Positions 15,906 to 21,588 of a stretch of 21,970 bases of DNA are shown one piece after another. Source of the DNA: a virus; IMG/VR virus record IMGVR_UViG_3300006638_000027, positions 1-21,970 of that record; one strand, written 5' to 3'. The translations under genes were made by a program, and so were the position numbers. Each line of letters opens with the position of its first letter. The first letter of the stretch is position 1. The notes below the pieces were generated by a model. It saw only the letters and a list, made by a program, of their open reading frames with translations. It had not been told where the DNA came from and did no database searches.

Positions 15906-16080
15906 TTTTTTTCCTCTGCTCATGTCTATAAGCAGCAAGATTATAAATATGAATGGCGTAGCGTAATTTTCTTATTGAAATTTCAGGCTCATCTGGAATA
16001 CCGCAATTAGTCTGCGTCAAAGCAATATCAAGTGCAATTTCATCCATCTTCTCATAATCAGGCTCGTTAGGATCTACCAT
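15889..16080 (-). CDS. Small hypothetical protein upstream of terminase (63 aa)
   Basis: It starts inside the last codons of the glycosyltransferase gene (ATGGTAGATCC) and ends 17 bases into terL. Acidic N-terminus MVDPNEPDYEKMDEIALDIA; basic helical C-terminus (RKLRYAIHIYNLAAYRHEQRKK). It occupies the usual place of a small terminase but is much shorter than TerS and shows no clear helix-turn-helix, so I do not call it one. It links the sugar cassette and the packaging genes into one operon. Confidence 0.6.
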   Translation of the reverse strand: MVDPNEPDYEKMDEIALDIALTQTNCGIPDEPEISIRKLRYAIHIYNLAAYRHEQRKKNVKSA

Positions 16081-16861
16081 TCATGAACTCCTCTGCCGAT
16101 TTCTTGGCAGCGATATAAGTCTCGTCTGGCTCAGACTTATCCCCCATCAACTCTTCCCACTTCTGCCAATTGAGTGCCCACATTTCATCATTAGACCTAA
16201 ACCATTTTTCAACTGGCTCTATATCCGGCATTGGCAGGCCAAGGGATTCTCGTATCTTCTTCGCATGTTCTGTGCGCTCAGGACGCTTTGCAATGAAGAA
16301 GTCCATCCAGAATCGCAGGTCACGCAGACGTTTCGTTGTCGGGGTTTTTTTATGAATAAAGCAGGCGGCCTCAACCATGTAAATCGGTAATCCGTGAACC
16401 ATGGCTGATACTTCTTGAAGCCATGTGTCGTCAAACCAGAAGGGGAAGTAATCAGTATATATCTGACCAGCAGCCTGCCGCCATTTCTCCGGCACAATAG
16501 GTATCACCGGTCCGGCATTAGTTGTCCACCATACGACACGCCTGTCATCCTTCTTATAGGCATCTGCAATGCACACATCCCAGTATGGCCTCACAACAAG
16601 GGAGCGGTCTGTCACAAGGGCATAGACATCCGCAGGAGATTTTGCAGCCGCATAATCCCACGCTCCACCCAATGAGCCTCTTGGCCGTATGAAAGAATCA
16701 GCGAGAGAAACAGATGCCGCCTTGGTTTCCCAGTCATCTTCATCGCAAACTATTGTGTATTTTATCTCATTCTGTCCGCTGGCCAGAGCGTCAAGAGCAC
16801 CCATGCAGGTGCGAAGCCCTGATGGATTGCCGCGCGAGGCGCAAAGTACCGATATTTTCAT
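16067..16861 (-). CDS. GT-A-like glycosyltransferase
   Basis: 264 aa, ATG at 16861 overlapping the upstream stop as ATGA, with GGGAG upstream. The N-terminus ISVLCASRGNPSGL is the first beta strand and nucleotide loop of GT-A enzymes. CDEDD (39-43) and VTDR (83-86) sit where the nucleotide-binding and DxD-like metal positions fall. FWFDDTWLQE (141-150) resembles the acceptor-side acidic motif of family-2-like enzymes. There is no membrane segment. It probably transfers the sugar made by the genes just upstream, either onto host surface glycan or onto a phage component. Donor and acceptor are inferred. The C-terminal helical part (about 195-264) has no recognised domain. Confidence 0.6.
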   Translation of the reverse strand: MKISVLCASRGNPSGLRTCMGALDALASGQNEIKYTIVCDEDDWETKAASVSLADSFIRPRGSLGGAWDYAAAKSPADVYALVTDRSLVVRPYWDVCIADAYKKDDRRVVWWTTNAGPVIPIVPEKWRQAAGQIYTDYFPFWFDDTWLQEVSAMVHGLPIYMVEAACFIHKKTPTTKRLRDLRFWMDFFIAKRPERTEHAKKIRESLGLPMPDIEPVEKWFRSNDEMWALNWQKWEELMGDKSEPDETYIAAKKSAEEFMNGRS

Positions 16862-17847
16862 CTCCCTGCCGTACTTTCACTGAAGGCAATGTAGCGTTTG
16901 CCAGCGTCACTCTTGTTGGCCGCATACCACGCTATAGTTTCTTTGATGCCAGTTTCTAAATCCACTTCCGGTTTATACCCGTAAGATTGAGCACGGCTGA
17001 TATCCATCAAGCGAATGGCATCGCCGCTCGGCTTATCCTTGTCCCACACAATGTCTACGGGGCCACCCGGTGCGTTCCTTGCCACCATCTCAGCAACTTC
17101 TTTAATCGTCACCGCACGCCCGGAAGCCAGATTGAGGGGGGCAGTAATTCCCTGTTCCATCGCCATCATCATGCCGCGCGCCACATCATCAGCATGCACA
17201 AAATCACGGATAGCAGACCCGTCGCCCCAGACAGTCAGCGGATTCTCTCCGTTCACCACGCGCGCTATCAGCGACGGCAGAACCATAGCCGTCTTGGAAT
17301 CAAACCAGTCATATGGCCCGTAAACATTGGCAGGGCGCACGATAGAGCACTTCCAGTTATATTCTATCGCATACGCCTCAGCCTGCAGCTCCCCCATGCG
17401 CTTCGCCCAGCCAGCGAAGCGATCGTTTGGCGATGGGAACCCGTTCCACACATCGTCCTCTTTAAAAATCTGGGCAGGCGAATAAACACCAACGGTGCTG
17501 GTGTAGAGATAGCGGCTGACATTTGACTTCCTTGCCGCTTCCATCATGTTGATTGAAGTCTGCAGCGTTGGTACGAAGAACGATGCCGGATATTTCAAAG
17601 TGGCCGACGGCGAGCCTTTGACGCCGACAAGGTTGAAAACAAAATCCTGGCCGCTACACGCATACTGACAGCTCCTGAATTCGCGCAAGTCCATGGTGTA
17701 ATTATCCGCCCCAGCAGGCAGACTATCCGTATCCATGGAGACAACAGTGACCTTGGCTCCCTGCTCGGCAAGCATCCTGACCAGCGGCCTGCCGATAAGG
17801 CCGGTGCCTCCGGCTACTAAAACTTTCCGGTTTCTATAAAAATTCAT
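16858..17847 (-). CDS. Extended SDR sugar-nucleotide epimerase/reductase (second)
   Basis: 329 aa from ATG at 17847, which has GAGG nine bases upstream; ATG at 17862 has no ribosome site. Rossmann motif GGTGLIG (13-19), active-site TSTVGVYS (115-122), then RFAGWAKRM with Lys149. In the usual YxxxK motif Tyr sits four residues before Lys; here that residue is Ala145, and Phe144 is next to it. Further motifs: IVRPANVYGP, WGDGSAIRDFVHADDVARG, LNLASGRAVTIKEVAE and LMDISRAQSYGYKP, typical of GDP-fucose-synthase-like and epimerase/dehydratase families. It acts in the cytoplasm on an NDP-sugar. Overlaps both neighbours; clearly coexpressed with the first SDR. Exact reaction unknown. Confidence 0.8.
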   Translation of the reverse strand: MNFYRNRKVLVAGGTGLIGRPLVRMLAEQGAKVTVVSMDTDSLPAGADNYTMDLREFRSCQYACSGQDFVFNLVGVKGSPSATLKYPASFFVPTLQTSINMMEAARKSNVSRYLYTSTVGVYSPAQIFKEDDVWNGFPSPNDRFAGWAKRMGELQAEAYAIEYNWKCSIVRPANVYGPYDWFDSKTAMVLPSLIARVVNGENPLTVWGDGSAIRDFVHADDVARGMMMAMEQGITAPLNLASGRAVTIKEVAEMVARNAPGGPVDIVWDKDKPSGDAIRLMDISRAQSYGYKPEVDLETGIKETIAWYAANKSDAGKRYIAFSESTAGR

Positions 17848-18778
17848 GTTTGTGTGCCTCATACCAAAGGATTGTGCTCGTTATACCGTCTTCGAGAGAT
17901 ACTTTCGGCGTCCATTCCAACTGAGAATGGGCAAGTGCGCAGTTCAATGAAGTGCTTACTTTAATGGACGGCTTATCGACATCATATTTCACCGCCAGAT
18001 CCTTGCCAGACACCTTGATTATCTTGGCAACCAAATCACCGATTGTCGCGGCGTGGCCAGCACCGCAATTGTACAGGCCAAAATTGTCCGGCTGCTTCTC
18101 AATCGCACATTCAACGAAGTTCACAAGGTCGTCAATGTACATGACATCGCGCGCTTCAGAGCCATCGCCCCAGACATCAACCATGTGCGTGGCAGACATC
18201 ACCTTGTTGATAGTCGCACCAAATACATGGGCCTTATCCAGCGCAAATTTGTCATGTGGGCCGTAAAAATTGCTACCGCGAACAACCGTGAACTTCGTGT
18301 CTCCAAGCCCAGCATAGAACGCAGCCATCTTTTCAAGATAAAGCTTAGTGCCAACCATTCCGAAATATCGCGGGTTCGGTGCAATCGGAGCTTGTTCATT
18401 TACAAAGCCGCCACCGTACATGGTCGAGCAGCTAAACCAGATAACATGCTTCGCCTTTTTCTCGAATGCATGGCGAAAGATATAGGAATTCATCACGGCA
18501 TTGTCCGTCACATGGAGGTATGGCCGCTCAAACGTATCCTTGCAGCCCGATGTAACGGCAGCGGCCTGCACCACAATGTCCATATGGTTCATCAGCATTC
18601 CGACCATAGCCCCATTGCAGAGATCTATCTGGTGCCAAGTTATGTTGGGGTGATGCCATGACGGTCGCTGGAAACAAGTGGCGTGGACCTCATAGCCCGG
18701 ATGATTGGCAAATCGCTCTGCGATATTATGTCCGAGAAATCCGGTTCCGCCGCACACAAGCATGGTTTTTTTTGTCAT
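17834..18778 (-). CDS. Extended SDR sugar-nucleotide epimerase/reductase (first)
   Basis: 314 aa, ATG at 18778 overlapping the previous stop as ATGA. GGTGFLG (10-16) binds NAD(P). CSTMYGGG (117-124) is the Ser/Thr active-site strand, and RYFGMVGTKLYLEK (137-150) carries Lys145. The residue four before it is Met141, not Tyr; the nearest Tyr is 138. Substrate-side motifs: VVRGSNFYGPHDKF, HVFGATINKVM, VWGDGSEARDVMYIDDLV. It resembles GDP-L-fucose-synthase-type proteins. Together with the next SDR it may perform a reduction plus epimerisation. Overlaps the downstream SDR gene by 14 bases. The family call is firm; substrate unknown. Confidence 0.8.
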   Translation of the reverse strand: MTKKTMLVCGGTGFLGHNIAERFANHPGYEVHATCFQRPSWHHPNITWHQIDLCNGAMVGMLMNHMDIVVQAAAVTSGCKDTFERPYLHVTDNAVMNSYIFRHAFEKKAKHVIWFSCSTMYGGGFVNEQAPIAPNPRYFGMVGTKLYLEKMAAFYAGLGDTKFTVVRGSNFYGPHDKFALDKAHVFGATINKVMSATHMVDVWGDGSEARDVMYIDDLVNFVECAIEKQPDNFGLYNCGAGHAATIGDLVAKIIKVSGKDLAVKYDVDKPSIKVSTSLNCALAHSQLEWTPKVSLEDGITSTILWYEAHKHEFL

Positions 18779-19290
18779 AAATATGTCTCCACCAATAGGG
18801 TTGAATGATCTGCTTCCATCGCAGCGCGGTATGCCGGGACTATCTCGTTTGCATCAGCCAGCCTCACAACACGAACCGTGCTTAACATTTTCTCAACCGC
18901 ATCGGTATAATCTCCGAGATGCTGAGGGCCGGGGTCAAGCGGGACGGGAGTTGCTATAGCCGTGCGAATAATTACCTTCGGGCGATAGTCGCTGAACAGC
19001 GGAATCTTGTCAAGGTGCTGCACCAGTTGCGAGATAGCCTCAAGCATGAAATTGATGCGAGGGAAGATGCATATCGGCAGCCAGCCAGCCATGGCAATGC
19101 CGGTGCAAAAGCCCATCTGCATATTCTCTGCGACCGGGAATTCAAGACGTTTGTGCACAGGAACATCGGTCAGCGTATTCGACATGGCCGTTCCGGCACA
19201 AGCTACGGCCTGCCCGACGAAAATGGATTTAGGGTGGTATGACAAAACATTCATTGCCCTGCGAAGTTCCTCAAAATATTCCTGTTTCAT
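18775..19290 (-). CDS. Transketolase/E1 beta-like TPP pyrimidine-binding subunit
   Basis: 171 aa, ATG at 19290 coupled to the 56-aa gene by an ATGA overlap. VGQAVACAGTAMSNTL (25-40) and FPVAENMQMGFCTGIAMAG (51-69) are the pyrimidine-domain signature; Glu55 matches the Glu that activates the TPP aminopyrimidine. FPRINFMLEAISQLVQHLDK follows, as in E1 beta and transketolase Pyr domains. At 171 aa it has only this domain and lacks the C-terminal transketolase domain, unlike a normal E1 beta (about 320 aa). It must pair with the alpha-like protein encoded upstream to make an active site. Reaction unknown. Confidence 0.75.
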   Translation of the reverse strand: MKQEYFEELRRAMNVLSYHPKSIFVGQAVACAGTAMSNTLTDVPVHKRLEFPVAENMQMGFCTGIAMAGWLPICIFPRINFMLEAISQLVQHLDKIPLFSDYRPKVIIRTAIATPVPLDPGPQHLGDYTDAVEKMLSTVRVVRLADANEIVPAYRAAMEADHSTLLVETYL

Positions 19291-19457
19291 AATAAATCTT
19301 TTATGTTAGCACATTTTATTGCGCCTTTTATAGCTGACTCTGGACCGGGACACTCAGGGCCAATTATACATCTTTCATCGCCGCTCTTTTTTACACGAGC
19401 TATCCATATCGGATCTTCAAAAAACACCTCCACGATATATCTTAATTCTTCCGTCAT
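19287..19457 (-). CDS. Small hypothetical protein between the TPP subunits (56 aa)
   Basis: Start chosen at ATG 19457, one base after the alpha stop, rather than upstream starts lying inside the alpha gene. The product is MTEELRYIVEVFFEDPIWIA ..., with GPECPGPESAIKGAIKCANIKDLL at its end. It is mixed alpha/beta in appearance, with three Cys (residues 31, 36 and 50). It does not resemble any known TPP-enzyme segment. Its tight coupling on both sides argues that it is translated. It could be an assembly or accessory peptide of the split enzyme. Confidence 0.55.
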   Translation of the reverse strand: MTEELRYIVEVFFEDPIWIARVKKSGDERCIIGPECPGPESAIKGAIKCANIKDLL

Positions 19458-19458
19458 A

Positions 19459-20064
19459 TCAAAACTCAATTCTTTTACCAGCACCGCTATGGGGAAATGG
19501 GAGTGCATACTCATATTCGTATAATATTCTTTCAACACCAAATTTTCTATTATGTTTTATACCCCACACTTCCCGCGTATCGGTACAAACACTTTTGTTA
19601 TTATTCTCCACTATCAATCTTATCGGCAGATCCCACCCCCGTATATAATTCCTGCACTCTTGAAAAAGACCTGACATGGCACACATATCGCCAACAAAGC
19701 AGAACACCCTTTCATTGCCACCACTCTGCTTAATCTGCCATGCCACTCCAAGAGCTATCGGACAGCAGCCAGAAAAGATGGCGGAGGAGAAGAAGCGATG
19801 TTCGGGCGAGCAAACCGTCATGGAGCGACCAGCCATAATTTGTCTCTTGATCTCTTCTGCAGGAACGCCAGCAAGTAGCGCGTGGTAGTGATTACGCCAC
19901 GTGGAGAAACACCAGTCGCCTTTTTTGAAGTCCTTGAAGATGTCTATCAACTGAGATTCATTATTCCCAGACAAGTGTATGGGCGCACGAATAAGTCCAG
20001 AGTTGAAGTCTCTGGCCACCTGAGCCTCAAAATTTACGAGTTCTTCAGAACTTATATTTGCCAT
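19459..20064 (-). CDS. Transketolase/E1 alpha-like TPP diphosphate-binding subunit
   Basis: 201 aa; ATG at 20064 overlaps the end of the PLP-enzyme gene by 20 bases. WRNHYHALLAGVP (56-68) is the E1-type His region. FVGDMCAMSGLFQE (123-136) followed by IVENNNKSV (151-159) forms the GDx(26-28)NN TPP/Mg2+ motif, with M in place of the second G. The end, YEYEYALPFPHSGAGKRIEF, fits the natural C-terminus of such short sugar-locus homologues, so the gene is complete. It would bind the diphosphate of TPP and work with the beta-like subunit encoded 169 bases downstream. In a sugar cassette, a two-carbon transfer or decarboxylative addition to a keto-sugar is plausible, which would branch its carbon chain. 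Inferred. Confidence 0.75.
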   Translation of the reverse strand: MANISSEELVNFEAQVARDFNSGLIRAPIHLSGNNESQLIDIFKDFKKGDWCFSTWRNHYHALLAGVPAEEIKRQIMAGRSMTVCSPEHRFFSSAIFSGCCPIALGVAWQIKQSGGNERVFCFVGDMCAMSGLFQECRNYIRGWDLPIRLIVENNNKSVCTDTREVWGIKHNRKFGVERILYEYEYALPFPHSGAGKRIEF

Positions 20065-21244
20065 AAGTCACCATAAAATCATCCACACACCCCGCAACAT
20101 AATCCACAGCACGCTCATCAATATCCTGATGACAGCCAATGGCGAATCCGTTTCGCATAATAAAATCGCAGTTACTAAGCGCTCCGGCAGCGCGATGCTC
20201 ATGCATCTTGAGAGCCGGATGGCGTGCCATGTTACCGGCAATGATGGGGCGGGTTTCCACTCCCTTGCTTTGCAGGAATGAACTCAAATCCCTGCATTTA
20301 AACGGCGCATCACCCTTCACAACAATCCCAAAGCCAAAGCAACTTGACTGTCCGTTCATCTGCTCTTCCTGAAACTGCAGGTATTCGCCGTACTTGCCAA
20401 GCCTGTTGCGGTACATAGTCTGGGCGGTGCGCCTCTTCCTCACAAAATAGGCTAGCTTGGGTAGCTGCTTCATGCCAATCACTGCCTGCACTTCAGTCGG
20501 GCGCAGGTTGTACCCGGTATTGATAAAGATAAAGCGCGGGTCAATATCGGGGTTGGCGTCGATATGCTTCTGCTTATCATCAGCCTCCCTGCTCCAGCCA
20601 TGCGCGCGCAGGATACGCATCAACTCAGCCAGTTCATGGCTATTGGTGAAGGCAATTCCGCCCTCGAAGGTGGTGATGTGGTGGGAGTAATAGAAGCTCA
20701 TGGTGCTCACCGTGCCGGAACTGCCCACCGGATGGCCGACATAAGAAGCGCCCATAGCCTCGCAGCAATCTTCAATCACGTACAGGCCATGCTTATAAGC
20801 CAGCGCGCATATTTTGTTCATGTCACATGGATTACCATACACATGCACCAGCATTATCGCCTTTGTCTTCGGCGTAATGGCAGCCTCCAGTTTTTGCATA
20901 TCCAGATTGTAGGTGGAGAGGTCGCAATCCACAAATACCGGGATAAGTCCGTGTTGGATAATCGGCCAGATAGTCGTGGCCCACGAGAGCGCCGGAACAA
21001 TCACCTCATCGCCAGCTTTCAAACTCCCATGCCATGCCGGGTTCGCCAGTGCCGCGATGGCGAGGAGATTGGCAGAGGAACCGGAATTGCACATCACGGC
21101 ATACTTCACGCCAAAATACCTGGCGCATTGCTCCTCAAACTCCCGCACCTTTGGCCCCATGGTTACGTGGGTCGTGCGCATCTGCTCGCAGGCAGCCTGT
21201 ATTTCCTCCTCACCGAAGGTAGGTTCGTGCAGACGAATTTTCAT
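20045..21244 (-). CDS. ColD/RfbH-like PLP sugar 3-dehydratase (DegT/DnrJ/EryC1/StrS fold)
   Basis: 399 aa, ATG at 21244, ATGA overlap with the upstream stop. DegT-fold landmarks: NSGSSANLLA (53-62), VIVPALSWATT, VYGNPCDM, VIEDCCEAMGASY (156-168) and SFYYSHHITTFEGG (183-196). In aminotransferases of this fold the position at 188 is the PLP-binding Lys. Here it is His, exactly as in ColD (GDP-4-keto-6-deoxymannose 3-dehydratase) and the E1/RfbH dehydratase, which remove the C-3 hydroxyl. The Cys cluster of the iron-sulfur E1 type is not visible, so ColD-like chemistry is favoured. Product would be a 3-deoxy (3,6-dideoxy) 4-keto NDP-sugar. Full-length, no damage seen. Substrate nucleotide not determinable. 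Confidence 0.85.
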   Translation of the reverse strand: MKIRLHEPTFGEEEIQAACEQMRTTHVTMGPKVREFEEQCARYFGVKYAVMCNSGSSANLLAIAALANPAWHGSLKAGDEVIVPALSWATTIWPIIQHGLIPVFVDCDLSTYNLDMQKLEAAITPKTKAIMLVHVYGNPCDMNKICALAYKHGLYVIEDCCEAMGASYVGHPVGSSGTVSTMSFYYSHHITTFEGGIAFTNSHELAELMRILRAHGWSREADDKQKHIDANPDIDPRFIFINTGYNLRPTEVQAVIGMKQLPKLAYFVRKRRTAQTMYRNRLGKYGEYLQFQEEQMNGQSSCFGFGIVVKGDAPFKCRDLSSFLQSKGVETRPIIAGNMARHPALKMHEHRAAGALSNCDFIMRNGFAIGCHQDIDERAVDYVAGCVDDFMVTYGKYKF

Positions 21245-21588
21245 ATATTATTAAGTTCGCCTAAAATAATAACTGTATTTTTCACCGACAATGTTCCGTC
21301 AGAGCTTGATAAGGCATCAATTTTTCTATTCAATTTTTTAAATTTTTCACGCCTAATGATTGCAGCTCTGGCGAAGAGGCACCATATCGCTGCAATCATA
21401 GCTAACATTACACCACCCTGCGCATATCTTTCAGTTAAAGACATCATTACACCGGTTTGCCTGTTGATATAATTAACAGGCAAGAATACAAAAATAGCGA
21501 CAAATATTACTTCAAGACAGCATATTATATTTAATCCGGTTATTGGACTATCATTAAAATCAAAATCAGCATTGTCAGAACAATTCAT
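21241..21588 (-). CDS. Two-helix membrane protein leading the sugar cassette
   Basis: 115 aa, ATG at 21588 with GAGGAGG. Transmembrane segments at about 19-37 (LNIICCLEVIFVAIFVFLP) and 57-76 (GGVMLAMIAAIWCLFARAA), followed by a basic cytoplasmic helix (IIRREKFKKLNRKIDAL). It overlaps the ColD-like gene. It lies downstream of the promoter-like site, so it would be the first gene of the transcript. No family recognised; possibly an anchor or unrelated moron gene. Confidence 0.6.
   Translation of the reverse strand: MNCSDNADFDFNDSPITGLNIICCLEVIFVAIFVFLPVNYINRQTGVMMSLTERYAQGGVMLAMIAAIWCLFARAAIIRREKFKKLNRKIDALSSSDGTLSVKNTVIILGELNNI

Follow-up and report, generated by a model that had tools for sequence, protein, structure and literature searches.

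We describe a gene of a tailed phage that very probably encodes a ColD-type nucleotide-sugar 3-dehydratase, its chemistry being modelled on ColD. It lies in what we call the window, the whole 21,970-base virus sequence analysed, in which terminase, portal and capsid genes are also present. The open reading frame begins with the ATG at 21244 on the minus strand and encodes 399 amino acids (aa). It contains the motif SFYYSHHITTFEGG, whose first histidine is residue 188. The assignment builds on direct observation of this residue, the surrounding active-site signature, the fold, the phylogeny and the gene context. The relevant features of the window are:

20045 to 21244, minus strand: DegT-fold PLP/PMP enzyme, very probable ColD-type nucleotide-sugar 3-dehydratase, with His188 at the Schiff-base lysine position (from sequence search, profile, model and tree)
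20681 to 20683, minus strand: codon of His188 (SHH motif, first His), computed from the start codon at 21244
19459 to 20064, minus strand: thiamine-diphosphate enzyme, PP-domain half, 201 aa, E1-alpha-like, with GD...NN motif; matches residues 8-196 of the fused phrog_34187
18775 to 19290, minus strand: thiamine-diphosphate enzyme, PYR-domain half, 171 aa, E1-beta-like, with catalytic Glu E55 and without the E1-beta C-terminal domain
17834 to 18778, minus strand: SDR1, extended SDR (NAD-dependent epimerase/dehydratase family), 314 aa; orthologues in L002 and L099
16858 to 17862, minus strand: SDR2, extended SDR nearest GDP-L-fucose synthase (GDP-4-keto-sugar epimerase/reductase), 334 aa, candidate C4 reductase
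16067 to 16861, minus strand: glycosyltransferase-like protein, 264 aa; phrog_14945 (weak), orthologue in L002
14277 to 15938, minus strand: terminase large subunit

The preliminary description of this DNA had noted a histidine where DegT aminotransferases have a lysine. This observation proved exact: profile and PDB alignments place His188 opposite His188 of ColD and the catalytic His of RfbH/E1, instead of a lysine at the PLP position, and the numbering agrees with that of ColD because the two proteins align there with no net offset (after subtraction of a shift of two in the tagged PDB chain). The catalytic His is kept in viral relatives that are ~72-73% (L002), 63% (L099) and 55% (L100) identical (fetched loci carry L numbers). 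A tree of 114 DegT proteins of both kinds has all His types on one side of one branch and all Lys types on the other, which corresponds to one change compared with a shuffled mean of 38. A chance histidine at residue 188 is ruled out by this conservation and the single-change split.

The protein has the DegT/aspartate aminotransferase fold (PF01041, E=6.6e-96). A PDB sequence search returned ColD (2gms) first (E=7.9e-81) and E1/RfbH (3bcx) next (E=4.7e-77), the match to the Lys-type perosamine synthase being far weaker (7e-54), and the AlphaFold model (mean pLDDT 82) also has ColD 2gms as its best PDB match (E=1.4e-36). Identity to ColD is ~37% and overall identity to RfbH is equal to that; the active site separates the two. 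Alignment with ColD, RfbH and perosamine synthase, a check proposed beforehand, revealed ColD-type residues throughout: W88, E162, S187, H215, R219, F240 and R248 are the ColD residues at seven of seven discriminating sites, where RfbH has F, D, A, W, C, Y and K. The four-Cys [2Fe-2S] motif that a motif search finds in RfbH was not found in the window protein. Furthermore, the protein groups with those of L099 and L100 (support 99) within a ColD-containing set (support 97), with RfbH placed elsewhere on the His side of the tree.

What defines ColD, E1 and SpnQ is a His in place of Lys (PMC8987622), and to this extent the literature agrees with the preliminary description, which had taken the change to define ColD- and RfbH-type dehydratases. 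The definition needs one refinement: SpnQ, also of the His type, acts as an aminotransferase when its reductase is absent (PMC8987622). Because of SpnQ, the His motif alone is a strong but not an absolute sign of a 3-dehydratase, and the full ColD signature is a stronger one. An ordinary or bifunctional aminotransferase that yields a 4-amino sugar despite its histidine, as the SpnQ precedent, the DegT fold and the family label might suggest, is very improbable, given that all tested Lys-type proteins lie across the tree, that ColD-type residues occupy the whole active site, and that ColD and E1, unlike SpnQ under the same conditions, showed no transaminase activity, the E1 H220K variant transaminating only non-catalytically (PMC8987622). 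Least probable of all is an RfbH/E1-type CDP-sugar 3-dehydratase requiring an iron-sulfur cluster and a reductase; the NCBIfam RfbH model NF011936 is indeed the top family match (363.5 bits, below its cut-off of 423) and overall identity does not favour ColD, but the cysteines are absent, every discriminating site carries the ColD residue, no E3-type reductase is found among the cassette genes, and the window lies on the ColD side of the tree. The RfbH-type assignment was ruled out by the absent cysteines and the active-site residues, and a CDP sugar is an unlikely substrate. The full signature, the tree and the absence of the lysine thus support the earlier proposal of a predicted 3-dehydratase rather than an aminotransferase; its authors were right about the residue and, judging by analogy, almost certainly about the chemistry.

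The window protein shares with ColD (E. coli GDP-4-keto-6-deoxy-D-mannose 3-dehydratase, PDB 2gms/3b8x/3gr9) His188, the complete active-site signature, the fold and the lack of an Fe-S cluster, and the same catalytic design would be expected. It differs from ColD in belonging to a separate clade with L099 and L100, in being phage-borne and in its neighbours, which include a thiamine enzyme and, in relatives, heptose-type genes. With RfbH/E1 (CDP-4-keto-6-deoxyglucose 3-dehydrase, Yersinia, PDB 3bcx) it has in common the His for Lys and the DegT fold, whereas the [2Fe-2S] cluster and E3 reductase that RfbH/E1 needs set that enzyme apart. In these enzymes, the histidine that replaces the catalytic lysine acts as acid and base, and ColD releases the dehydrated sugar as an enamine that is then hydrolysed, with glutamate restoring PMP (PMC8987622). 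We infer that the window enzyme works as ColD does, both the chemistry and the nucleotide being carried over from ColD. A GDP-4-keto-6-deoxy sugar would be bound to PMP through its C4 ketone as a Schiff base, His188 would take the PMP C4' proton, and the C3 hydroxyl would leave; the enamine would be released and hydrolysed to a GDP-4-keto-3,6-dideoxy sugar and ammonia, and glutamate would regenerate PMP. Since His replaces Lys, neither an internal aldimine nor a stable amino sugar would be expected. The GDP-fucose-synthase-like SDR and the glycosyltransferase may then complete and attach the sugar.

The cassette lies directly upstream of the terminase large subunit, as in the relatives L007/L008 and L099, and combines the ColD-family C3-dehydratase with a candidate C4 reductase (SDR2). 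No 4,6-dehydratase, nucleotidyltransferase or sugar kinase is present in the window, which reaches 726 bp upstream of the DegT start before the contig ends. A 115-aa open reading frame, apparently a small membrane protein, occupies 21241-21588 (minus strand), its stop overlapping the DegT start (ATGA); it has no convincing relative among the fetched loci.

With identity to ColD at only ~37%, the substrate is not readable from the protein itself. Indeed, characterised ColD-type (hexose) enzymes share 62-67% identity with the C3-dehydratase from the 3,6-dideoxyheptose route of Campylobacter (PMC10440746), hence sequence alone cannot separate hexose from heptose enzymes. We thus turned to the gene neighbourhood of relatives. 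The orthologous cassette of L002, whose DegT protein is the one 72-73% identical to that of the window, comprises in order glycosyltransferase-like genes, a 4,6-dehydratase, DegT, a nucleotidyltransferase, thiamine alpha and beta, an SDR, a GHMP kinase, a further SDR, a glycosyltransferase-like gene and terminase. In the closest viral relatives, the 4,6-dehydratase beside DegT has GDP-heptose 4,6-dehydratase as its best match, a single solved enzyme of this kind being the reference for the heptose call. This heptose-type gene is present in L002, L099 and L100 and matches 7us5 in the two tested; the call holds for L100 (7e-91) and also for a marine cassette, L140 (4e-111). The L002 kinase is HddA-like and matches D-glycero-D-manno-heptose kinases. 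C. jejuni makes 3,6-dideoxyheptoses with a GDP-heptose 4,6-dehydratase and a C3-dehydratase, and in its HS:5/HS:11 pathway these stand with an HddA-type kinase and a C4 reductase (PMC10440746), a set matched in the window's relatives. Differences from that pathway are the genes missing from the window, the cytidylyltransferase-like type of the relatives' nucleotidyltransferase, and the thiamine enzyme, of which the review (PMC10440746) makes no mention.

Given the heptose-type dehydratase and kinase in relatives and the Campylobacter precedent, the likeliest substrate is GDP-4-keto-6-deoxyheptose, and we consider a Campylobacter-type 3,6-dideoxyheptose route, over one from a mannose derivative, reasonably probable. 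The same 3-dehydratase chemistry acting on the hexose GDP-4-keto-6-deoxymannose, to give a colitose-like 3,6-dideoxyhexose, is a possible, if doubtful, alternative. It agrees with ColD being the nearest characterised enzyme with a structure, with SDR2 falling nearest to GDP-fucose synthase, in whose family a ColC-like reductase would be expected, with GDP-mannose being common in hosts, and with the many other viral His-type DegT genes that adjoin a mannose-type GMD. L002, L099 and L100, however, carry the heptose-type 4,6-dehydratase and an HddA-like kinase instead of GMD, and the window's thiamine enzyme occurs in none of 29 loci that pair a mannose-type dehydratase with a His-type DegT. A hexose (colitose) had been the default reading and was demoted after the relatives' neighbouring dehydratase proved heptose-like.

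The preliminary description had further held that the His change sets the chemistry of the whole cassette, a deoxy rather than an amino sugar. The deoxy-sugar part of this claim finds support; as a description of the cassette it falls short, since the split thiamine-diphosphate enzyme and the relatives' heptose-type genes make it more than a deoxy-sugar operon. The two thiamine proteins each correspond to one half of phrog_34187, a 405-aa phage family ('transketolase central region-containing protein', cyanophages S-SM2 and P-TIM68), which has the same PP and PYR module in one fused chain beside Zn-ADH and PfkB kinase genes, with no DegT, whereas the window has a split enzyme with DegT. They also weakly match human PDH E1 alpha and beta, with the catalytic Glu and GD...NN motif kept, and the complete thiamine-binding module (GD...NN in alpha, E55 in beta) is conserved across 76 and 64 sequences. 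As the pair lacks the C-terminal domain of E1-beta, and no gene of the window cassette was identified as E2 or E3, a stand-alone decarboxylase or carboligase seems more likely from the sequence than a dehydrogenase complex. Between the two genes lies a possible 56-aa open reading frame (MTEELRYIVEV..., 19290-19457, minus strand) that has no match in the fetched loci save the window's own copy; in L002, unlike the window, the thiamine genes abut.

We scanned viral contigs with four anchors, namely thiamine alpha, His-type DegT, Lys-type DegT and 4,6-dehydratase, using alignments as queries because single-sequence scans had found only two near-duplicate contigs. DegT counts were clustered at 70% identity, the pair was scored within 8 kb, and heptose- or mannose-type was assigned by similarity to L002, L100 and L140 or to L105, L106 and L111, respectively. 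The split thiamine enzyme lay within this distance in 21/58 His-type clusters, a count inflated by seeds partly picked near the enzyme, versus 2/58 Lys-type clusters. Around His-type DegT anchors, it accompanied the heptose-type dehydratase in 20 of 21 loci (3/4 clusters) and the mannose-type in 0/29 (13 clusters); around dehydratase anchors, the corresponding counts were 18/39 (7/19 clusters) and 0/42 (8 clusters). Presence of the thiamine enzyme thus follows the dehydratase type, which ties it to the heptose-type pathway and not to 3-dehydration as such. A simple pairing with the 3-dehydratase, as an analogue of YerE, is weakened, as the dehydratase-anchored scan shows the pair where no DegT was found. 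When bacterial genomes were scanned with the thiamine alignment, only 10 loci came up, most of them of the fused type.

What the thiamine enzyme does can be read in two ways, both tentative. It may add a pyruvate-derived two-carbon unit at C4 of the pathway ketone and so yield a branched 3,6-dideoxy sugar, much as YerE or AviB1/AviB2 do; we regard this as conceivable, though on the unlikely side. YerE acts on a 4-keto-3,6-dideoxy sugar, alpha-keto-acid-dehydrogenase-type pairs (AviB1/AviB2, KbDH) branch sugars in antibiotics, and in these systems (YerE, AviB1/AviB2, KbDH-alpha/beta) the thiamine enzyme is encoded beside 4-keto-deoxy-sugar enzymes as in the phage cassette (PMC12247030, PMC4753412). 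YerE is a single decarboxylase-family flavoprotein, whereas the phage pair is much shorter. The retained catalytic residues without accompanying E1-beta C-terminal domain or E2/E3 genes, and the excess near His-type DegT, inflated as it is by the seeding, are consistent with branching. Against it, the pair tracks the heptose-type 4,6-dehydratase even in loci where no DegT was found, is absent from the 29 loci of His-type DegT with mannose-type GMD, and has fused relatives that adjoin Zn-ADH and PfkB with no DegT.

Alternatively, the enzyme may act upstream and help to supply the seven-carbon precursor, as a transketolase-like or 1-deoxyketose synthase-like enzyme, which we hold to be slightly more doubtful still. 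The same tracking of the heptose-type dehydratase speaks for it, as do the fused homologues, which are accompanied by genes typical of heptose activation (PfkB kinase, nucleotidyltransferase and HAD phosphatase-like). The top folds for a model of the fused enzyme are transketolase and DXS, but within broad transketolase/DXS/E1 matches, at moderate model quality and with low Foldseek TM-scores. Furthermore, the sequence is nearest to pyruvate-type E1, and sedoheptulose 7-phosphate is normally supplied by the host.

The wider set of viral loci is varied. L140 (6804-14200), L112, L123, L131, L135, L137, L142 and L153 carry a conserved cassette of thiamine alpha and beta, His-type DegT, two SDRs, heptose-type 4,6-dehydratase and PfkB-like kinase, followed in some loci by a nucleotidyltransferase and a small HAD-like protein. 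The fused 400-aa thiamine enzyme of L004 (S-SM2), L005 (P-TIM68) and L091-L098 adjoins a Zn-dependent alcohol dehydrogenase, usually together with a PfkB-like kinase; its carriers are cyanophages and MAGs of Patescibacteria and others. In L020, L023, L026, L030, L031 and L034, large SDR genes separate alpha from beta, which lies several kb further downstream, and in L006 (LR756501, 6391-8609), a 735-kb uncultured phage genome, beta precedes alpha with a radical-SAM-like gene between. Near this thiamine enzyme, L018, L065, L155 and L178 have a second His-type DegT of ~436-446 aa, which falls on the RfbH side. Since the iron-sulfur cysteine pattern is found in two of three of these proteins tested, both 3-dehydratase types occur in phage contigs, and in L018 and L155 they do so in one locus.

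A phage 3-dehydratase is already known from Synechococcus phage S-CAM7, annotated CDP-4-keto-6-deoxy-D-glucose-3-dehydrase, so that the novelty is the gene set, not the enzyme by itself. In a limited literature search we found no description of the window clade or of the set of heptose-type dehydratase, ColD-type dehydratase and minimal split thiamine enzyme, and nothing relevant on cassettes for colitose or heptose, or on 'transketolase central region' cassettes, in phages. Of greater interest than the residue itself are the probable sugar and the neighbouring genes.

Automatic annotation makes this gene an aminotransferase, and its phage relatives mostly bear the label 'hypothetical protein' or 'aminotransferase'. 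The earlier warning that the latter label misleads was justified: it predicts the wrong sugar where the ColD signature points to a 3-dehydratase. Read correctly, the gene points to phages carrying a dideoxy-sugar pathway, predicted for cell-surface polysaccharide; the phage would help to make a deoxy sugar for such a polysaccharide, the sugar probably being a 3,6-dideoxyheptose and the purpose presumably a phage-driven change of the host surface. As a long shot, this pathway may be widespread in phages, with the ColD-type 3-dehydratase producing GDP-4-keto-3,6-dideoxyheptose and the minimal split thiamine enzyme extending it at C4, so that the host surface would be remodelled with a branched higher-carbon sugar that bacteria are not known to make. 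The recurrence of this minimal enzyme with a heptose-type dehydratase makes virus-encoded sugar carbon-carbon chemistry concretely testable.
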